64,000 bases of DNA. Origin: Dyella acidiphila (GTDB lineage Bacteria; Pseudomonadota; Gammaproteobacteria; Xanthomonadales; Rhodanobacteraceae). The notes below the pieces were generated by a model, which was not told the origin of the DNA, ran no database searches, and saw nothing but the letters and a program-made list of their open reading frames with translations. The stretch spans positions 1-64,000 of the forward strand of contig NZ_JACZZA010000007.1 of the NCBI RefSeq assembly GCF_014863405.1. The letters run 5' to 3'. Position numbers and translations under genes: made by a program. Of this stretch, positions 1-9,862 are shown one piece after another (positions within the stretch are counted from its first letter, which is position 1; each line of letters begins with the position of its first letter).

Positions 1-99
1 AACACGGTTCGGCCGCATAGCGCGTTGAATTATCGGCCACCGGCTCCTGAAGCTGTCCTGCCAGCCATCCAGGATGTACATCTGAAGCTCGCTGCTTAA
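1..99 (+). mobile_element. C-terminal fragment of an IS3-family transposase (cut by the window edge)
   Basis: Frame 1 reads 32 codons and then TAA at 97-99. The peptide contains NTVRPHSALNYRPPAPEA, the well-known C-terminal signature of IS3-family (IS407/IS3-like) OrfB integrases. The rest of the element is left of the window. Positions 100-125 would hold the outer inverted repeat, and they run directly into the stop codon of the leftward gene at 122. The motif is unmistakable. Whether the element is intact outside the window cannot be seen. Confidence 0.85.
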
Positions 100-121
100 A
101 CTAACCCTACATCTGGACCAG

Positions 122-1150
122 TTAGTGCAGGCCACTCACTGATGTCACGTACTTATTCCATAGGCCTCTTTTCTTATCGTCTTCAGCATCAATGTATGTC
201 TCCGATTCGAGCATCCTGAAGTCGTTCAAACTACGCTTTATGAGATAGCTCGCGAGAATGTCCTTCTCGTCCATCGCAATAATAAGATTACCAGAACGAA
301 CCGCGCGCTCCTTCTCACTTAGGTAATGAATAAAGTCGGTAGCAGTGCTCAACTCATCGAGAACTAGGTCGAGCGTAGCTCCATCGAACACATGAACGAA
401 CGTCTTTGATCCATCGAAGCCAGGAACAGTGAAGGGATGTGAAGCAGCGTCATCCACATCCATTTGAAGCCTGCATTTCAATGAGCCGTCCGATTCCCCC
501 TCGCAAGATTCAAAGTATTTGCGCGCAGCCTCGCTGCTGTTGTGAGTGACCGCAACCAAATGAAATACGGGATTTCCCGTACTGATATCAAACGGGAAAG
601 GCTTCTGGCATTTTTCATCAAGGAAGAGACCATTCTCCTTCCTCTGGATGCACATCTTCGCACCGTAAAGCTGCTCTACAGACTTAACAACGGAGCTTTT
701 ATACCACCGCCTCCAGGCCATATCGACATTCGGATCAGCGGGAAATGCAATATTTTTATCCGAAAAAAGAACTATGTGGCCATTAAAATGAAGAAGAAGA
801 TCGACAAGTTCTTTGCCAGTGCCGTTAGCTGAACATCCATCGTCTCGAAAAAGTGAAGAGTACGGCCATAGAGGGCTAAAGATTTGGTCAGCCTTAGCTG
901 ATAGGTATTGCTCTGATGGTGTAGTTCCAGTTTTCTTTACTATCTTTTCAAGCATATCGGCCCCACGGCTCATTGCCAGAATAATTGGCGTATCCCAGGT
1001 ATCACAGCTGATGTTTTTGCTATGCTTTAGCTTTGATCGTCGTGTTGGAACAACACTAAGACGCGCTCTTGCCTCTACATCTCCGCTAAAAGATATTAGA
1101 CGTGAACATTTTTTTTGCACGTCAGATGAGTCAACCCAAAAGACACCCAC
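122..1150 (-). CDS. Unrecognised conserved protein, possibly restriction-nuclease-like; third gene of the ParB-methylase cassette
   Basis: The protein has up to 342 residues and no named family that I can assign. The conserved part seems to begin near residue 76 (TPSEQYL). It includes GKELVDLLLHF (112-122), then a hydrophobic strand ending in LFSDKN (128-133), then W-R-R-W (146-149). E114/D117 followed by a strand ending in K132 recalls the PD-(D/E)XK nuclease core, but a serine sits where the second acidic residue is expected, so the nuclease idea is weak. The start is uncertain. GTG at 1150 has no ribosome site, and a good site (AAGGAG) precedes an ATG at 1181 in another frame. ATG at 955 is a further candidate. 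It lies 44 bases after the methylase and is probably in the same operon. An IS3 remnant abuts its 3' end. Confidence 0.6.
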   Translation of the reverse strand: MGVFWVDSSDVQKKCSRLISFSGDVEARARLSVVPTRRSKLKHSKNISCDTWDTPIILAMSRGADMLEKIVKKTGTTPSEQYLSAKADQIFSPLWPYSSLFRDDGCSANGTGKELVDLLLHFNGHIVLFSDKNIAFPADPNVDMAWRRWYKSSVVKSVEQLYGAKMCIQRKENGLFLDEKCQKPFPFDISTGNPVFHLVAVTHNSSEAARKYFESCEGESDGSLKCRLQMDVDDAASHPFTVPGFDGSKTFVHVFDGATLDLVLDELSTATDFIHYLSEKERAVRSGNLIIAMDEKDILASYLIKRSLNDFRMLESETYIDAEDDKKRGLWNKYVTSVSGLH

Positions 1151-1194
1151 GAAAGTGTCTGTCTTGCATTAGCTGACTCATGAGTGCGTTCTCC

Positions 1195-2106
1195 TTATGC
1201 CGCTCTGCGAGCTCGCAGACGCGCCTTATTTTCAGCAAGAGCGTCATCGATGTAAGGCAGCTCGGAGAACTTAGGAATCCTAAGACTATCCGAGAAAATA
1301 AAAACTTCTCGTCCTTGATATACCCGAGAAGCGTTGTATTGAAGGTCATATAGAAACGACCTTCGCTTCTTGTAGTAGGCAAGAATTTCGGGCGCACTGT
1401 CGTAGGACACCATCCAGTTGTGGCCCACCTTTGTTTGAATATATTTGGCGATACGCTCGTGATCATCTGGCTCATATGAGTTGAGGTACAGACGACTTGC
1501 CTTTTCAAAATACGGAGGGTCGCAATAAACCAGCGTGTCTTCTGGAAGACCACCTACATGGTCAGTCATGAAACGCTCGGCATCCCAATTTTTAATGACA
1601 ATGGCTGACTTTCGGTCTGCAATCGTTTCAATACGGCGAATAAGTTCATTCCTCGTGAAGCGAGCATCCATTTTCCAATCGCCAGTTTGGTCAAGCCCTC
1701 CAATCACCCCACCTGAAAGGACGCCAGACCGGTTGCAGCGATTGAGGAAAAACGCGCTGTATCCAACCTCAAGAAGAGTATGATTTTTCGGACTCCTAAC
1801 AATGTCGCGGCGTCTTTTCCACTCTTCCACTGTCATGGACGCGGAAGAAATCATCGCGTTCAAGGCATCTGTTTCTTTCAACACAGAACGCCAGAAAGCG
1901 TAGATGGGTAAGGCAGAATCATTAAGATGAATCTTGCGCACGTACTTGCGCAAAAGAAGCTCCAGAGCCACGCCAGCACCACCGGCATAAGGCTCCGCAT
2001 ATTCGCCACCAATCAGGTCGTTGGCTTCGAGTACCTCGATGACAAATGGCGTCAGTTTTTGCTTCCCGCCTGGGTACCTGAGCGGGGTGTGATATCGGGC
2101 TGACAT
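1195..2106 (-). CDS. Dam-type (D12 class) DNA adenine-N6 methyltransferase
   Basis: The protein has 303 residues. It shows the ordered motifs of the D12 family: RYPGGK (10-15) and the S-adenosylmethionine motif AEPYAGGAG (37-45). These are followed by FFLNRCNRSGV (119-129) and the catalytic DPPY (196-199). Dam and related enzymes transfer a methyl group to N6 of adenine, usually in GATC; the target here is unknown. The ATG at 2106 has an AGGAG site six bases upstream. It starts 10 bases after the ParB-like gene, so the two are probably translationally coupled. Location in an island beside unrecognised partners suggests a modification or self-marking role rather than housekeeping Dam. Confidence 0.88.
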   Translation of the reverse strand: MSARYHTPLRYPGGKQKLTPFVIEVLEANDLIGGEYAEPYAGGAGVALELLLRKYVRKIHLNDSALPIYAFWRSVLKETDALNAMISSASMTVEEWKRRRDIVRSPKNHTLLEVGYSAFFLNRCNRSGVLSGGVIGGLDQTGDWKMDARFTRNELIRRIETIADRKSAIVIKNWDAERFMTDHVGGLPEDTLVYCDPPYFEKASRLYLNSYEPDDHERIAKYIQTKVGHNWMVSYDSAPEILAYYKKRRSFLYDLQYNASRVYQGREVFIFSDSLRIPKFSELPYIDDALAENKARLRARRAA

Positions 2107-2116
2107 GTTCGGCTCC

Positions 2117-3541
2117 TCAGTTCATTTCTTCGAGGAGCGGGAAAATATTTCCAAACAGAACCACGATATCTCCAACCTGAAGTGAGAACTTCGGATTGTG
2201 CACCAGTTGATTCATTGATGTAACTGACAAAATTCCATCGTGGCGGCCGAGCTCAGTCATGGCCCCATGGAGTCGCTTGAGAGCCTCCTTATCCTTCTTA
2301 TCATTTGTCAGGTGCTTTGTAATATCCCGCAAGACATCGACGAGTGGTCTGTCTCGACCGTCTTTTCCAATGACAGTCAAGCCATCGGCCTTATGGTCTA
2401 TGCAATACGCTTTGGCCGAGACTTCGAACATACTCCGCAGAAGAAAGCAGAAGGCAATCGGGTTCTTGTCTAGACTGAGTACTCGGAGTTCCTCTTGGAG
2501 AGAGACAACCTTTTCTCGGTTTTTGCCTCGGGGACTGAACGCTCGAAGGGTTCGAGCAACACGACGGGGGTCGTCCATTGCGACCGCTTTTGGCCCTTTC
2601 CCATTTCCAGGAGTGCCAGTGGCGCCCGTACCATCTCCCTTGCTACCAGTTCCACCTGACGCGCTTCCACTGGAACCTGAGGTGCTCCCCGATTTACTAC
2701 TAGTGGACCCACTGGAAGAGGCTCCAGAGGTACCTTGGCCAGGGAGTTGAGGGATGCCGTAATCCGAGGCGAAATCTGTCTTTCGTATAGCTTCAAAGCC
2801 TAGCTCTTGTTGGCCGATATCTTTAATGATTTCTTCGAGTTCAGGTCGATTTTTAACCCTTGGATAAGACTTAGCCAATTCGGGACTATTGGTACAACCA
2901 AGGCGAACAGCGACCTTCTTCATCGCTTCTTCCAGGACTGTAATTGGAAAATCACCAGCCCAACGTTGCGCTTGTTGCTCTGTCCTGTTTTTGCCTTTTT
3001 GCAGATATTTCTCAAGGAGGTCAAGGGCTGGCTCTGAAGCTCCATTCTCCTCTCGGTTATGACGAGCCCTGGCCACGGGCGTCCACTTGTCACGACCAGC
3101 TTTTTCACCCTTGCCATGGGTGAGGCTTCGGATGCGGTTGACTACATCGCTTTCACTAAGCTCATAGATAGCAGTTGGAACGGATGAGTTCGCCTTCTTC
3201 CATTCCTTAGAAATGGATTCGATGGCGGTCAAAATATTCGTTGGGACCGATAGGCCCTCTGTCGAAATCAGCCCGTGAACGAGCTTCAGGACAGAAATGC
3301 GTCGATTACCCTCTTTAACTGTGAGGCCAGCCCTCGGGCCTGTCCCATCCTTCTGCACAAGGATGTTTTCCGTTGGAAGATAACCATCGTCAAGCAGGCT
3401 CTGTGCCAGTGCCCAAAACCAGTCCGGGTTGGTAGCAATGATAGCCTCGACAGCACTGCGCTCGTTTGGCTGGTGCAAAGTTCTGTAATTACTTAAATCC
3501 AGCTTTAACTGCTTGACTGGTGTAAGTGCGGTAACTGGCAT
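2117..3541 (-). CDS. ParB/Srx-like N-terminal domain protein with Ser/Gly linker and unknown C-terminal domain
   Basis: The protein has 474 residues. The first ~95 residues look like a ParB/sulfiredoxin-fold domain, with EGNRRISVLK (77-86) at the place of the ParB 'GERR' box. Residues ~100-265 are helical. Residues ~266-319 are a low-complexity Ser/Gly/Thr linker. The C-terminal ~150 residues contain FCFLLRSMFEVSAKAYC and end in VLFGNIFPLLEEMN; I recognise no family there. The ATG at 3541 has a GAGGG site. It is first in a minus-strand operon with the methylase and the nuclease-like gene. There is no ParA partner, so plasmid-type partition is unlikely. ParB-fold domains are also found as NTPase or nuclease modules in DNA-modification loci. 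Confidence 0.7.
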   Translation of the reverse strand: MPVTALTPVKQLKLDLSNYRTLHQPNERSAVEAIIATNPDWFWALAQSLLDDGYLPTENILVQKDGTGPRAGLTVKEGNRRISVLKLVHGLISTEGLSVPTNILTAIESISKEWKKANSSVPTAIYELSESDVVNRIRSLTHGKGEKAGRDKWTPVARARHNREENGASEPALDLLEKYLQKGKNRTEQQAQRWAGDFPITVLEEAMKKVAVRLGCTNSPELAKSYPRVKNRPELEEIIKDIGQQELGFEAIRKTDFASDYGIPQLPGQGTSGASSSGSTSSKSGSTSGSSGSASGGTGSKGDGTGATGTPGNGKGPKAVAMDDPRRVARTLRAFSPRGKNREKVVSLQEELRVLSLDKNPIAFCFLLRSMFEVSAKAYCIDHKADGLTVIGKDGRDRPLVDVLRDITKHLTNDKKDKEALKRLHGAMTELGRHDGILSVTSMNQLVHNPKFSLQVGDIVVLFGNIFPLLEEMN

Positions 3542-4273: not shown

Positions 4274-4871
4274 GATTACCACCTATATGAAAGATCCACT
4301 TTTGTGGGATTTGAAAAATATTTTGCGTCTCCTTTAACCATGACGCTCGCCATCAAATCCGCACCCTTTTCAAACAATAGCTTTTGTGAAACCAAACAAT
4401 TTTCGAACGTCAATACACGAACACCCCTGATGTCCCCATCAAGGTGTTGGCATGCCTAAGTTGGTAGTCCCCTATCACGCTCACAGCCCCCTGTATGCGT
4501 GTATGGCCGTATTCCTGGCCGGTCCTTAGATTGTCACTGCCCAGGCCTCTTTATGAGACCCTCGTCACATAGTTGACCATTTCAGGGCGTGAAGGAAATG
4601 TGATCCTAGGCGGTTCAAGCTGAGCCAGGACACGGAGTTATGGTGAGGTCGTAAGGAGCATCCACCGGTGCAAGAAAACGCACCTACAGTCTGGACGAAT
4701 TTCTCAGCCGGGTTCTGTATTACAGGGTTGATGACAGGCCGGTGGTATCCACCCATGCGTCAGTCAAGATAGGACATGTGAGGTTCGAATCCCCACGGGG
4801 ATTCGAACCTGCGGAAGGCTCTTGCTTGCACCAGGTAGCGTCCTATCACTGCCATGAGATTATCCAATCGT
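4274..4871. other. 598-base island stretch without a recognisable gene
   Basis: The first ~170 bases are AT-rich and must include the promoter of the leftward membrane gene. From about 4440 the composition changes to near 50-55% GC. I see no convincing coding frame; the short frames present have no ribosome sites or family features. The stretch contains a 30-base palindrome made of tRNA T-arm-like sequence at 4781-4810. Next to it (4795-4860) the minus strand looks faintly like a decayed tRNA, but no cloverleaf can be folded. Confidence 0.6.
4781..4810. repeat. 30-base palindrome built from two facing tRNA T-arm-like sequences
   Basis: Two perfect 14-base arms, AGGTTCGAATCCCC and its reverse complement, are separated by two bases. 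GGTTCGAATCC is the conserved T-arm core of tRNAs. The right arm and its flank (4796-4818) also resemble the 3' part of tRNA-Ser at 7390-7413. It could be a remnant of a recombination or attachment event, or a cruciform-forming site. No U tract follows, so it is not a standard terminator. Confidence 0.6.
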
Positions 4872-5840
4872 TCAGCAGACAACTAATTGGTCATAAGTAT
4901 ATTTTGGCGGCCCTTTTAGCACCCACTTCCCACCGTTATCGTATCGATTGGGCTCATAGGCTAAACAATAACCAGCCTGACGCCTTTGCTTTAAAAAATC
5001 TATGTATTCAAGATATCCATAAGCCCATAAAATTGTTTTCCGCTCTGAAATGCTTTTCCACGCATCTTGGGAAAGATGCGTATCTCTTGATATCTCGTAA
5101 ACGTGTCCTTTTTCGACGATTCTGGATGAGACTTCGTCGATGACACTGGCCATCGGATAGGTCGGTTCAAGTGGGAGTGCCTGATCAATTTGCGTTAGCA
5201 AAGAGTGCGAGGAGATGATTGCTGGCGTCCTACCATGATTCCCGAGATTTATGGTTAGAGTTCCTTTCATTTTCGAAATGGTTACGTTTTCGATTACAAA
5301 AATCGGCAACTCCAAAGCTATTGCGACTTCGGACGCGCGCTTTGCAAGTGCAATTGATGTTTTCAAGTCCTCGCCTTGCTGATTCGATATCTTCCGAAGA
5401 CGCCTGGTTTCCAACCATAAGTAACCACTAGAGAGCGCAAGGAAAAACGTAAAGACTGCGACAAGCCCATTAAATACAACAAGCAAAGAATCTTCCCTTT
5501 CTTTCTTTTCTTTCTCTCGCATGTCTTGAGCTATCTCATCCTTAGATTTCGGTGGAGATAAATCAATTACGTAGAGAGGCGAAGACACCGAGCCCAAAGA
5601 GGTTTGTTTAGGGTCACCACCCCAACAACTCTGCGAAAGACTCCAAACAGGTGAAAATGAAGTACATAGCGAATCTGCTTTGGTGTTTGCAAAACTGACT
5701 GAGACGCACAAAAAGTACAAACACGTCAACATAGACAAAGTAGCCCAGCATCCAAGACTCTTCGACTGGCAAACCCACCTCCAGTTAAAAACAGAAAAAG
5801 TTCCGGCGCTTGCTGGCCTTGAATCGAATTGTATTTTCAT
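4872..5840 (-). CDS. Membrane-anchored hypothetical protein with cytoplasmic or periplasmic C-terminal domain
   Basis: The protein has 322 residues. There is a hydrophobic segment near residues 29-51 (signal anchor or signal peptide) and a charged KSKDEIAQDMREKEKKERED stretch. A second transmembrane helix at about 119-142 (VVFNGLVAVFTFFLALSSGY) is followed by a short coiled segment. The C-terminal half looks like the soluble domain found in many island and phage membrane proteins of this layout; no enzyme motif is visible. It is the gene nearest the integrase, ends opposite to the tRNA, and has the biased AT-rich codon use of the island. Confidence 0.6.
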   Translation of the reverse strand: MKIQFDSRPASAGTFSVFNWRWVCQSKSLGCWATLSMLTCLYFLCVSVSFANTKADSLCTSFSPVWSLSQSCWGGDPKQTSLGSVSSPLYVIDLSPPKSKDEIAQDMREKEKKEREDSLLVVFNGLVAVFTFFLALSSGYLWLETRRLRKISNQQGEDLKTSIALAKRASEVAIALELPIFVIENVTISKMKGTLTINLGNHGRTPAIISSHSLLTQIDQALPLEPTYPMASVIDEVSSRIVEKGHVYEISRDTHLSQDAWKSISERKTILWAYGYLEYIDFLKQRRQAGYCLAYEPNRYDNGGKWVLKGPPKYTYDQLVVC

Positions 5841-5859
5841 CGGTACGTAACCTTTGAAT

Positions 5860-7293
5860 TTACGAATCTGACTTCCAATTCAACTTCTTCACCGCATCCA
5901 ACAGTTCTTTCATGGTCGGTGCCCTGCTGTAAGCAGCATGATGTTCATCGTCTAACTCATGTCCAACATACGCAGCACGAAGTTCCGCAGGGACACCCAA
6001 GGTTTGCAGACCTTGAACAACAGACTTTCGAAGTGAGTGAAAACCGAACTTTCCTTTCTCTGGTTTTCCAACAACTGCCAGCACATGACGACTAAAGGCC
6101 TTTGATAGCCAGTTCCCCATGCCGTTCACACCATTCGTTTTCACGCTTGGGAAAAGGCGCGTCTCCCCTGCTTTACGCAAAGCGTCAACCCGTTTGAGAA
6201 GACCAAGCTTTATCAGTGCAGGATGGACGGGAATGGTTCGGATACTGACGTCAGATTTGACGGACTGACCTTCCGACTCATCACAGATGCGTATACATGG
6301 AATCCCATCGACTTCTACAAAATCAGCCAAGGTAAGCTGACCCACTTCGGCAACTCTTGCGCCTGTATAGAGGCCAACCCAGGCGCCCCAGCGGGCCGAC
6401 TCACTGAGTCCATCTTCCATCGCCTTGTGGTCAAACAAGGCTTGAACTTGTGTTGTTGAAAATGGCTTAAATCCAAGGGAGCGGCGCTGACGTTTCTCGC
6501 GTGTTCCATACACCACCTGCCCAGCAGCAGGATTTTCATCTTTCGAAAATGGTGGGTAATACCCACGCGCCTTGGCCCAGTCGAAAAATCCGCGCAAGTA
6601 AGAAAGCTTGTTGACGATGGTCGGAGTTTCAAGCTTGCTTGCCCGAAGTGCTTGCACCCAATTGCCTACATCAATGCGCTGAGCATCCTTCAACGCATTC
6701 TTCTCACCATAGTGTTTAGCGAACCCTTCAACCGCCGTTGTTTTGATTTTAAACGTCTTGGTCTTGGTCGAAGACTTGATTTCAGCCAGCCATTGCGTCA
6801 CCGCCTTGCCGATGGCAATGCTGGGAATGGAAGACGAAGGATTAGCAAGAGTCTTTGCAGAAGCAGCTTGAGCTTGAAGGACGATACGTTGCGCCTCGGC
6901 CTTGATAGCTTCCTGATGGAACGGCTCTTTCACCAGAGGACCGATGTGGTCCACAGCATCCATGGCAAAGTCATGGTCTTCTTTGCCGTTCGCTTCGATT
7001 TCGACAGTCCCATCGGGTTTGACAATAACCCGATAACCCAAGGCAATCGCCTTGGCGATTTCATCAACCGTTGGAATGCCATCCATAGCCACACTCAGCC
7101 CCCTGACTGTGAAGGCTTGAGCATACGCTTGGACCAATGCCAAAGCACGTCTTTGAGCTGTGAAAAGGTCGCGTGTCTGTAGGCTTCTTTTGACTTCCAC
7201 CTTGCCCAATTTTTGAGCACTGTGGGCGGGAATACGTTGGCGAAAATGCCAGATGCCAGACGGCGCACGCTGAAGGTAGTTTGGGATACGCAT
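5860..7293 (-). CDS. Tyrosine recombinase / island integrase
   Basis: The protein has 477 residues. The N-terminal ~65 residues (NYLQRAPSGIWHFRQRIP) match the short domain common to phage-like integrases of this type, and residues ~160-245 form a SAM-like core-binding domain. The catalytic part carries R313 in LYTGARVAEV, H419 and R422 in FHSLRK, H445 in YVGHE and the nucleophile Y455 in HHAAYSR, so all key residues are present and the enzyme should be active. It lies 85 bases from tRNA-Ser, reads away from it, and most likely integrates the island at the tRNA 3' end. Confidence 0.93.
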   Translation of the reverse strand: MRIPNYLQRAPSGIWHFRQRIPAHSAQKLGKVEVKRSLQTRDLFTAQRRALALVQAYAQAFTVRGLSVAMDGIPTVDEIAKAIALGYRVIVKPDGTVEIEANGKEDHDFAMDAVDHIGPLVKEPFHQEAIKAEAQRIVLQAQAASAKTLANPSSSIPSIAIGKAVTQWLAEIKSSTKTKTFKIKTTAVEGFAKHYGEKNALKDAQRIDVGNWVQALRASKLETPTIVNKLSYLRGFFDWAKARGYYPPFSKDENPAAGQVVYGTREKRQRRSLGFKPFSTTQVQALFDHKAMEDGLSESARWGAWVGLYTGARVAEVGQLTLADFVEVDGIPCIRICDESEGQSVKSDVSIRTIPVHPALIKLGLLKRVDALRKAGETRLFPSVKTNGVNGMGNWLSKAFSRHVLAVVGKPEKGKFGFHSLRKSVVQGLQTLGVPAELRAAYVGHELDDEHHAAYSRAPTMKELLDAVKKLNWKSDS

Positions 7294-7344
7294 CTCGGTC
7301 TCTGTGTACCGATTTGTGTACCGACAGACTTTTCGCCAGACAAC

Positions 7345-7366
7345 AAAAAACCCTGTAAAAACAGGG
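7345..7366 (-). terminator. Rho-independent terminator of tRNA-Ser
   Basis: On the minus strand a CCCTGT / ACAGGG stem with a four-base loop is followed by six T residues, starting 13 bases after the tRNA CCA end. It would stop leftward transcription from tRNA-Ser before it enters the integrase. Confidence 0.8.
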
Positions 7367-7378
7367 CCTTTGCGTTAC

Positions 7379-7468
7379 TGGCGGAGAGAGTGGGATTCGA
7401 ACCCACGGTAGGCTTACACCTACGGCAGTTTTCAAGACTGCTGCCTTAAACCACTCGGCCATCTCTCC
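7379..7468 (-). tRNA. tRNA-Ser (anticodon UGA)
   Basis: The minus strand starts GGAGAGATGGCCGAGTGG, typical of serine tRNAs. The anticodon loop is CTTGAAA with anticodon TGA (reads UCA). A long variable arm (CGTAGGTGTAAGCCTACCG) follows, then T-arm GGTTCGAATCC. The acceptor strand TCTCTCC pairs with the 5' end, the discriminator base is G, and CCA is encoded. It follows serS and a small membrane gene in the same direction. Its 3' end is the probable island attachment site. Confidence 0.96.
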
Positions 7469-7531
7469 GTTTTAGATTGTCGCCGCTCGGCTTCCCGCTG
7501 CCGACCGGGTTTTGCAAGGCCGCCAATCCTA

Positions 7532-9228
<1,697 letters not shown>

Positions 9229-9286
9229 TTATCGCCGTGTGGCCTGCGCCATCGCAACGCGGCGAGCTCCGCTGCCGGTCGCGCGC

Positions 9287-9862
9287 TCAGGCCGCTTTGC
9301 GGCGGCCGCGGCCCAGCCACCATGCCATCACGGCGCCGGCCAGCAGCCAGCCGATCAGCTGCTCGACCAGGGCTGCCCAGGTAAAGCTGCCGGGGAAGCG
9401 GTACCAGTTCCAGTACGGCACCAGCAGGCTGAGCCAGGCGAATACCGGCGCCACCACGGCAATCAACAGGCGCTGGCCGAAGCTGAAAGCGGCCAGCCCC
9501 ATCACCACGGCCAGGGCCAGCGCGGACAGGGTATCGGAGGCCCATTGGCGTGCCAGCGCGCCGCCCATGCGGGTCATGTCTTCGCCCTGCGGCAGGTACA
9601 CCACCAGCGCGTAGGGCGATACGGCTGCCTTTTGGGCGTAGGCGGCCTTGCTGGCGGGGTCGTTCCAGTGATGCGGGTCGAGCGAGGGCAGCAGGTAGAC
9701 GCCGGGCTGGGGCCCCAGGCCTTCGTGCAGGCTGTTGAGTACGGTGTCTTCGTGGGCGGGCTGGTTGATGCCGATGTTGCCCAGGCCCAAGGCCATATGG
9801 GCGGCGGCGCCCCAGAGGAACATCACGATGCCGCCGAATATGGCGGCGATGAGTATGCGCAT
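9287..9862 (-). CDS. Conserved membrane protein of unknown function
   Basis: The protein has 191 residues. A first hydrophobic helix (residues ~3-25) is followed by a periplasmic-looking loop of ~80 residues rich in P, H and D. Three more helices lie at ~112-130, 133-150 and 163-182, and the tail is basic (GRGRRKAA). A GGGAGGG site precedes the ATG. No catalytic motif is visible. It sits 91 bases upstream of serS in the same direction but is probably transcribed separately. Confidence 0.7.
   Translation of the reverse strand: MRILIAAIFGGIVMFLWGAAAHMALGLGNIGINQPAHEDTVLNSLHEGLGPQPGVYLLPSLDPHHWNDPASKAAYAQKAAVSPYALVVYLPQGEDMTRMGGALARQWASDTLSALALAVVMGLAAFSFGQRLLIAVVAPVFAWLSLLVPYWNWYRFPGSFTWAALVEQLIGWLLAGAVMAWWLGRGRRKAA

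Follow-up and report, generated by a model that had tools for sequence, protein, structure and literature searches.

Two neighbouring genes near the left end of the window, by which we mean the whole 64,000-nucleotide stretch of Dyella acidiphila DNA analysed here, are by sequence an intact copy of PD-Lambda-5, a known two-gene anti-phage system. We consider it probable that this pair, here called genes A and B, is cargo of an island at a tRNA-Ser gene and has a methylation-sensing mechanism, and that gene C beside it is a separate, probably inactive cargo gene. An earlier note on this DNA had found no name for the combination of the three genes; the first two are PD-Lambda-5, published in 2022 (Vassallo et al., PMC9519451), and what the note described as one operon contains a known defence pair, in a likely defence island, and is no new three-gene system.

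Genes A and B are complete open reading frames (ORFs) on the minus strand, separated by 10 bases. Gene A (2117 to 3541, 474 amino acids) matched the PD-Lambda-5_A model PDLC03997 of PADLOC-DB 2.0.0 with 666 bits over profile positions 1-490 of 491, and gene B (1195 to 2106, 303 amino acids) matched the PD-Lambda-5_B model PDLC04018 of the same release with 375 bits over residues 4-282. The comparison with PADLOC models that the earlier note had suggested thus returned both partners. Gene B also matched Pfam PF02086 (62.9 bits, above the cut-off) and PDB entry 7m6b (E = 4.8e-21), and it carries a DPPY motif at residue 196. Judged by its domain and motif, B is a member of the D12 class (Dam-type) of N6-adenine methyltransferases and is complete, as had been claimed; NCBI's narrower dam model scored 46.7, below its cut-off of 114.85. 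For the two proteins together, the methyltransferase domain was the sole match above cut-off in Pfam, and NCBIfam gave none.

Of 25 distinct A loci, 24 had B next to A, and the contig of the remaining one (L158) stops within A; the window copy was excluded, and the loci comprised 11 distinct ones from the class search (L133-L146, among which three appear twice), 5 from the family search (L128-L132) and 9 viral contigs (L150-L158), two of which (L153 and L154) look like one sequence. The class matches to A were mostly distant (E from 4e-4 to 5e-9 in 10 of 11). Gene order varied, with B before A in L137 and B facing A in L133. A divergently oriented neighbour of the pair matched the PADLOC candidate HEC-07 in two of the 5 family A loci (L128:6797-8137, E = 1.9e-26; L129:9953-11284, E = 5.5e-24), which come from two related genera; the ORF list of the window has no HEC-07-like gene beside A.

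According to the available part of the original report, PD-Lambda-5 was discovered by selection for phage resistance, and in E. coli it restricts phages, with many phages affected (PMC9519451). In excerpts of later work, it is reported in Pseudomonas islands (PMC12629846) and is also listed in a Vibrio survey (PMC12824646). The portion of the literature naming the system that we covered contained no mechanistic study of it. By analogy with the E. coli system, we predict that the Dyella copy protects against phages.

The AlphaFold model of gene A (mean pLDDT 83.8, pTM 0.52) and its fold matches predict a ParB/Srx-fold domain at about residues 1-150, a helical middle at 155-260, a disordered Gly/Ser linker at 270-319 and a C-terminal HEPN-like fold at 338-474. 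The ParB fold named in the earlier note is therefore retained, and the C-terminal domain that it had called unknown is predicted to be HEPN-like. The N-terminus has both the ParB N-domain fold and the GxRR nucleotide motif expected of a ParB-type CTPase. In all 57 sequences compared, R-x4-6-H was absent at the active site of the HEPN-like fold, the arginine position before N444/H448 being occupied by Met or Leu (57 of 57); a second R-x4-H in A, R405-x4-H410, lies in an earlier helix. At least 1312 proteins matched A at E <= 0.001, and in PHROGs gene A falls in families of unknown function. A profile of A gave nothing useful by sequence match to solved structures, and tblastn of A against phage records gave no match. 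Viewed this way, as a ParB-like domain with a HEPN-like tail of degenerate motif, PD-Lambda-5_A has sensing and killing steps that can be tested.

We propose that B would methylate adenines in a short motif of the host DNA. A would bind DNA in a ParB-like, nucleotide-dependent manner, carry a HEPN-fold tail and be kept quiet on methylated host DNA. Its ParB-like part would recognise incoming unmodified phage DNA, and the HEPN-fold tail would then halt either the phage or the cell that it has infected. In this scheme we infer the order of sensing and effector action, a role for CTP or ATP, and an RNA target.

Type II restriction-modification systems have established addiction behaviour. A methylase with a suspected effector inside a mobile island could likewise stabilise its element, in that loss of the island would let methylation fade and A would attack the cell. 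Such a role is compatible with the mechanism that we propose, but we find it unlikely to be the main one, given that PD-Lambda-5 was discovered by selecting for resistance to phages, many of which it affects (PMC9519451). A somewhat stronger contender, though still unlikely, is that A nicks or cuts DNA with its ParB-like domain as the effector, the HEPN-fold tail being only structural, which would make the pair a true restriction-modification system. The arginine missing from the tail in every sequence compared favours this reading, as does the nicking of DNA by some ParB/Srx proteins, described in the available part of PMC12839542. However, the analysis shows no feature of this domain beyond the ParB fold, we identified no DNase motif, and the discoverers describe RM plus Abi (PMC9519451). 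Methylation sensing with a HEPN-fold effector is the preferred mechanism.

A gene for a tyrosine integrase with DUF6538 (5860 to 7293, minus strand; Pfam PF20172 and PF02899 above cut-off, PF00589 below) abuts a tRNA-Ser(TGA) gene found by ARAGORN (7379 to 7468, minus strand). The tRNA gene lies next to serS, which was identified by a sequence match and by reading of the ORF. Presumably this integrase brought the island in, with tRNA-Ser(TGA) as the integration site. The claim of a defence function in a mobile island is supported, PD-Lambda-5 being found near an integrase and a tRNA-Ser gene. The far end of the island was not found; it does not lie in the window, and the contig ends before it. 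The 3' end of the tRNA-Ser gene recurs at three other places in the genome, all tRNA-Ser genes. A 12-base stretch of this 3' region also recurs as an inverted pair at 4782-4809 of the window (E = 0.06), possibly an old attachment-site scar and possibly a chance match. ARAGORN called a tRNA-Ala(AGC) within the integrase gene (6427-6523), probably a false positive.

Related islands carry the same genes in other arrangements. In L129, which is from another genus of the same family, A and B (4955-9393) adjoin tRNA-Ser(TGA) and an 86% identical serS; 78 bases lie between the tRNA and B, so there is no integrase there. The tRNA-Ser(TGA)/serS site is perhaps a shared insertion hotspot. In L113, C is accompanied by a MobA/MobL gene and, 6.4 kb away, by an integrase; A and B are absent. 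This integrase is 71% identical to that of the window over 266 residues; a second integrase-like ORF, with a Pfam match below cut-off, adjoins C, and either may be the carrier of C. Similar tyrosine integrases adjoin tRNA-Gly(CCC) near C in L114 (10524-12284) and near A and B in L130 (1230-2981); a single type of integrase may thus mobilise either cargo. We read A with B, and likewise C, as cargo that related islands can exchange.

Gene C was first called as an ORF at 122-1150 on the minus strand. Its conserved start is the ATG at 955, so the gap between B and C is 239 bases; of the earlier description, the three minus-strand genes and the 10-base gap stand, and the 44-base gap does not. A terminator-like hairpin from hairpin search and folding lies in this gap (1141 to 1160, minus strand), although the evidence for it is weak (one found against 0.4 expected in shuffles; fold -14.4 kcal/mol, z -2.35). 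The region 900-1300 showed no promoter-like site.

At its other end, gene C is interrupted by a repeated element. Window base 1 is the start of contig C26 in a genome of 28 contigs, and the terminal 138 bases of the element occupy positions 1 to 138 (plus strand). In a search of the organism's own genome, bases 1 to 138-140 recurred at 14 further places with 99-100% identity. At least 11 of these copies sit at the start or end of a contig, and one is internal; a single other hit beyond the window, 29 bases from a different part of the query, was unrelated to the element. The stretch common to all copies stops at base 138 in the 9 copies compared, and two extend 1 and 4 bases more. Bases 1-99 encode, in frame on the plus strand of the element, a transposase-like C-terminal tail, from whose motif we take the element to be of the IS3 type. 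The window begins inside this transposon end, which cuts the gene called at the left edge.

What is left of gene C is its first 272 or so codons (139 to 955, minus strand, by alignment with relatives; own-genome profile match 137-955), and the reported stop falls within the repeated element. The 12 aligned relatives are longer than gene C and match it only from residue 66 of C, and relatives measure 440-538 amino acids in 40 of 41 cases and 262 in one. By this comparison gene C has lost about 40% of its length, running into the transposon end. The remnant retains most of the PD-(D/E)XK-like part and is without the C-terminal part, and it is probably inactive. Searches of the assembled genome with profile A1 and with P0002 returned this N-terminal piece alone and no second half, although that half might lie on an unassembled short contig. 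PADLOC gave one weak match for gene C itself, to MTase_II (E = 0.0033).

The earlier note had proposed that A, B and C form one defence system, with C as the cutting partner. The three genes do share strand and order in the window, and the nuclease-like fold of a C relative would suit a restriction role. Yet neither A nor B was present at any of 102 other C loci, whose flanks reach up to 10 kb, many being shorter, and some of which are closely related. These loci are 98 outside the organism's own genome (3 plasmid, 80 genome and 15 viral contigs) and 5 from the family search; one of these 5, L114, comes from the genome already counted as L029, with which it shares an integrase match, giving 102 and not 103. 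The A profile recovered every distant A locus given to it, so weak sensitivity is an unlikely cause of the missing A. Conversely, C was absent from the 5 family and 9 viral A loci. Rare adjacency of homologues, which had been named as a sign against a joint system, is thus what we observed for C, and the opposite holds for A and B.

Counts by genome, for which the first few candidates per genome were scored, gave rates too low for a strong test alone: among 233 family genomes 6 had C and 8 had A, and among 369 class genomes 12 had A and 4 had C, with the organism's own genome the only one in either set to have both. Two of the 8 family A matches, partial and in or from the linker, were taken as spurious. 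The locus count is the stronger evidence. Neighbour clustering in 103 C loci yielded no convincing recurrent partner; in the two biggest clusters, with 31 and 28 loci, the representatives overlap C on the opposite strand and were judged to be antisense ORFs, and each of the other clusters covers at most 7 loci. With the 239-base gap, its terminator-like hairpin and the truncation of C, these results make a joint three-gene system very improbable. We conclude that, as far as sequence can tell, C is a separate candidate defence gene, independent of A and B and broken here; in the preferred explanation it would be a cargo gene from a family that has a PD-(D/E)XK-like nuclease domain and no assigned function.

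Intact copies of the C family exist in other bacteria, Luteibacter aegosomatis among them, and this family is the lasting lead of the analysis. Gene C matched phrog_18195 (E = 2.3e-64; C residues 66-306 on profile 1-240 of 489), a PHROGs family of unknown function, so the family is catalogued without a function, and the copy here does not extend into the latter half of the profile. The fold predicted for a full-length relative is confident, and its N-terminal part is predicted to resemble PD-(D/E)XK nucleases, with the core fold present in the models of C relatives. The earlier suggestion of a possible nuclease is supported by this fold. All 39 family members compared have D52 and S65-D66-K67, and in all 39 a Ser stands two residues before the Lys in place of the canonical D...(D/E)xK triad. 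An acidic residue may have been relocated, so C relatives may still be nucleases. Sequence matching of a C profile to solved structures gave nothing useful, tblastn of C against phage records gave no match, and a viral fold library returned 696 matches, none at E <= 0.001, several weak ones being named PD-(D/E)XK.

A SEC-C motif occurs in 5 of 39 family members. PADLOC matches of five C relatives to PDC-S12, E1-E2 and E2 fell at the C-terminal end, at the presumed SEC-C motif, and were set aside. Judged by titles, the literature on SEC-C proteins in phage defence held nothing relevant. C relatives annotated as SEC-C metal-binding proteins appear in 140 plasmid records (61 from Klebsiella; L009 and L011 are examples of plasmid loci), IncN plasmids included. 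The L009 plasmid has an annotated type II restriction enzyme and a cytosine methyltransferase about 2-3 kb downstream of the C relative.

Defence genes tend to lie near C relatives. At 44 C loci with full flanks, we scanned up to three ORFs per locus within 3.5 kb of C (123 of 127 chosen) and up to three per locus reaching more than 6.5 kb from C (n = 130), with a PADLOC threshold of E 1e-15 for both sets. The near ORFs matched 234 PADLOC models and the far ORFs 63. These figures are no count of defence proteins and carry no significance test, because a single protein may hit several models and the near set is the larger in residues (53,319, with the four ORFs later dropped still included, against 41,191). 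Since the longest-ORF rule served to pick the ORFs, not all of them are genes. Among the matches listed, the near set held 14 kinds of component, including Hachiman HamB, pAgo, the RT-helicase of DRT, type II and III methylases and a phospholipase effector taken as CBASS. The far matches listed belong to 4 systems (Juk, Hachiman HamA, type I specificity subunits and Lmu). These neighbours support a defence role for C, short of proof. We tentatively suggest, at slightly less than even odds, that the family is a widespread, unnamed single-gene defence nuclease that combines a domain of the PD-(D/E)XK fold, whose S-D-K active site is relocated, with a new C-terminal domain, found alone in plasmids, prophages and mobilisable islands among defence systems. 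The by-product of this analysis is thus a family with a nuclease-like fold and defence-gene neighbours, to which the libraries searched give no functional name.

Relatives of C were compared with nucleases of the Nt.BspD6I/FokI PD-(D/E)XK type and with the effectors Can2, Card1 and SduA. The family had no sequence match to any of them; it has S-D-K where (D/E)xK is usual, and a C-terminal part without an assigned fold. For the pair, both proteins match the PD-Lambda-5 models, A adjoins B, and the setting is a mobile element. No defining difference separates them from PD-Lambda-5; the Dyella pair lies in a tRNA-Ser island, whereas the version in the available part of PMC9519451 is from a prophage, and downstream of the pair here is a cut, unrelated gene. 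Related combinations appear in the portion of Anantharaman et al. 2013 available (PMC3710099), namely HEPN proteins whose operons also contain genes for a ParB nuclease and a DNA methylase (MAE_28990 operons) and, in a table, the ParB-HEPN fusion Saro_3948. MAE_28990 is a separate HEPN gene marked 'Yes' in that table, which we take to mean a conserved R-x4-6-H, whereas in A the Arg is replaced. Compared by description, these operons and the fusion share their ingredients with genes A and B: a ParB fold, a HEPN fold and a DNA methylase.
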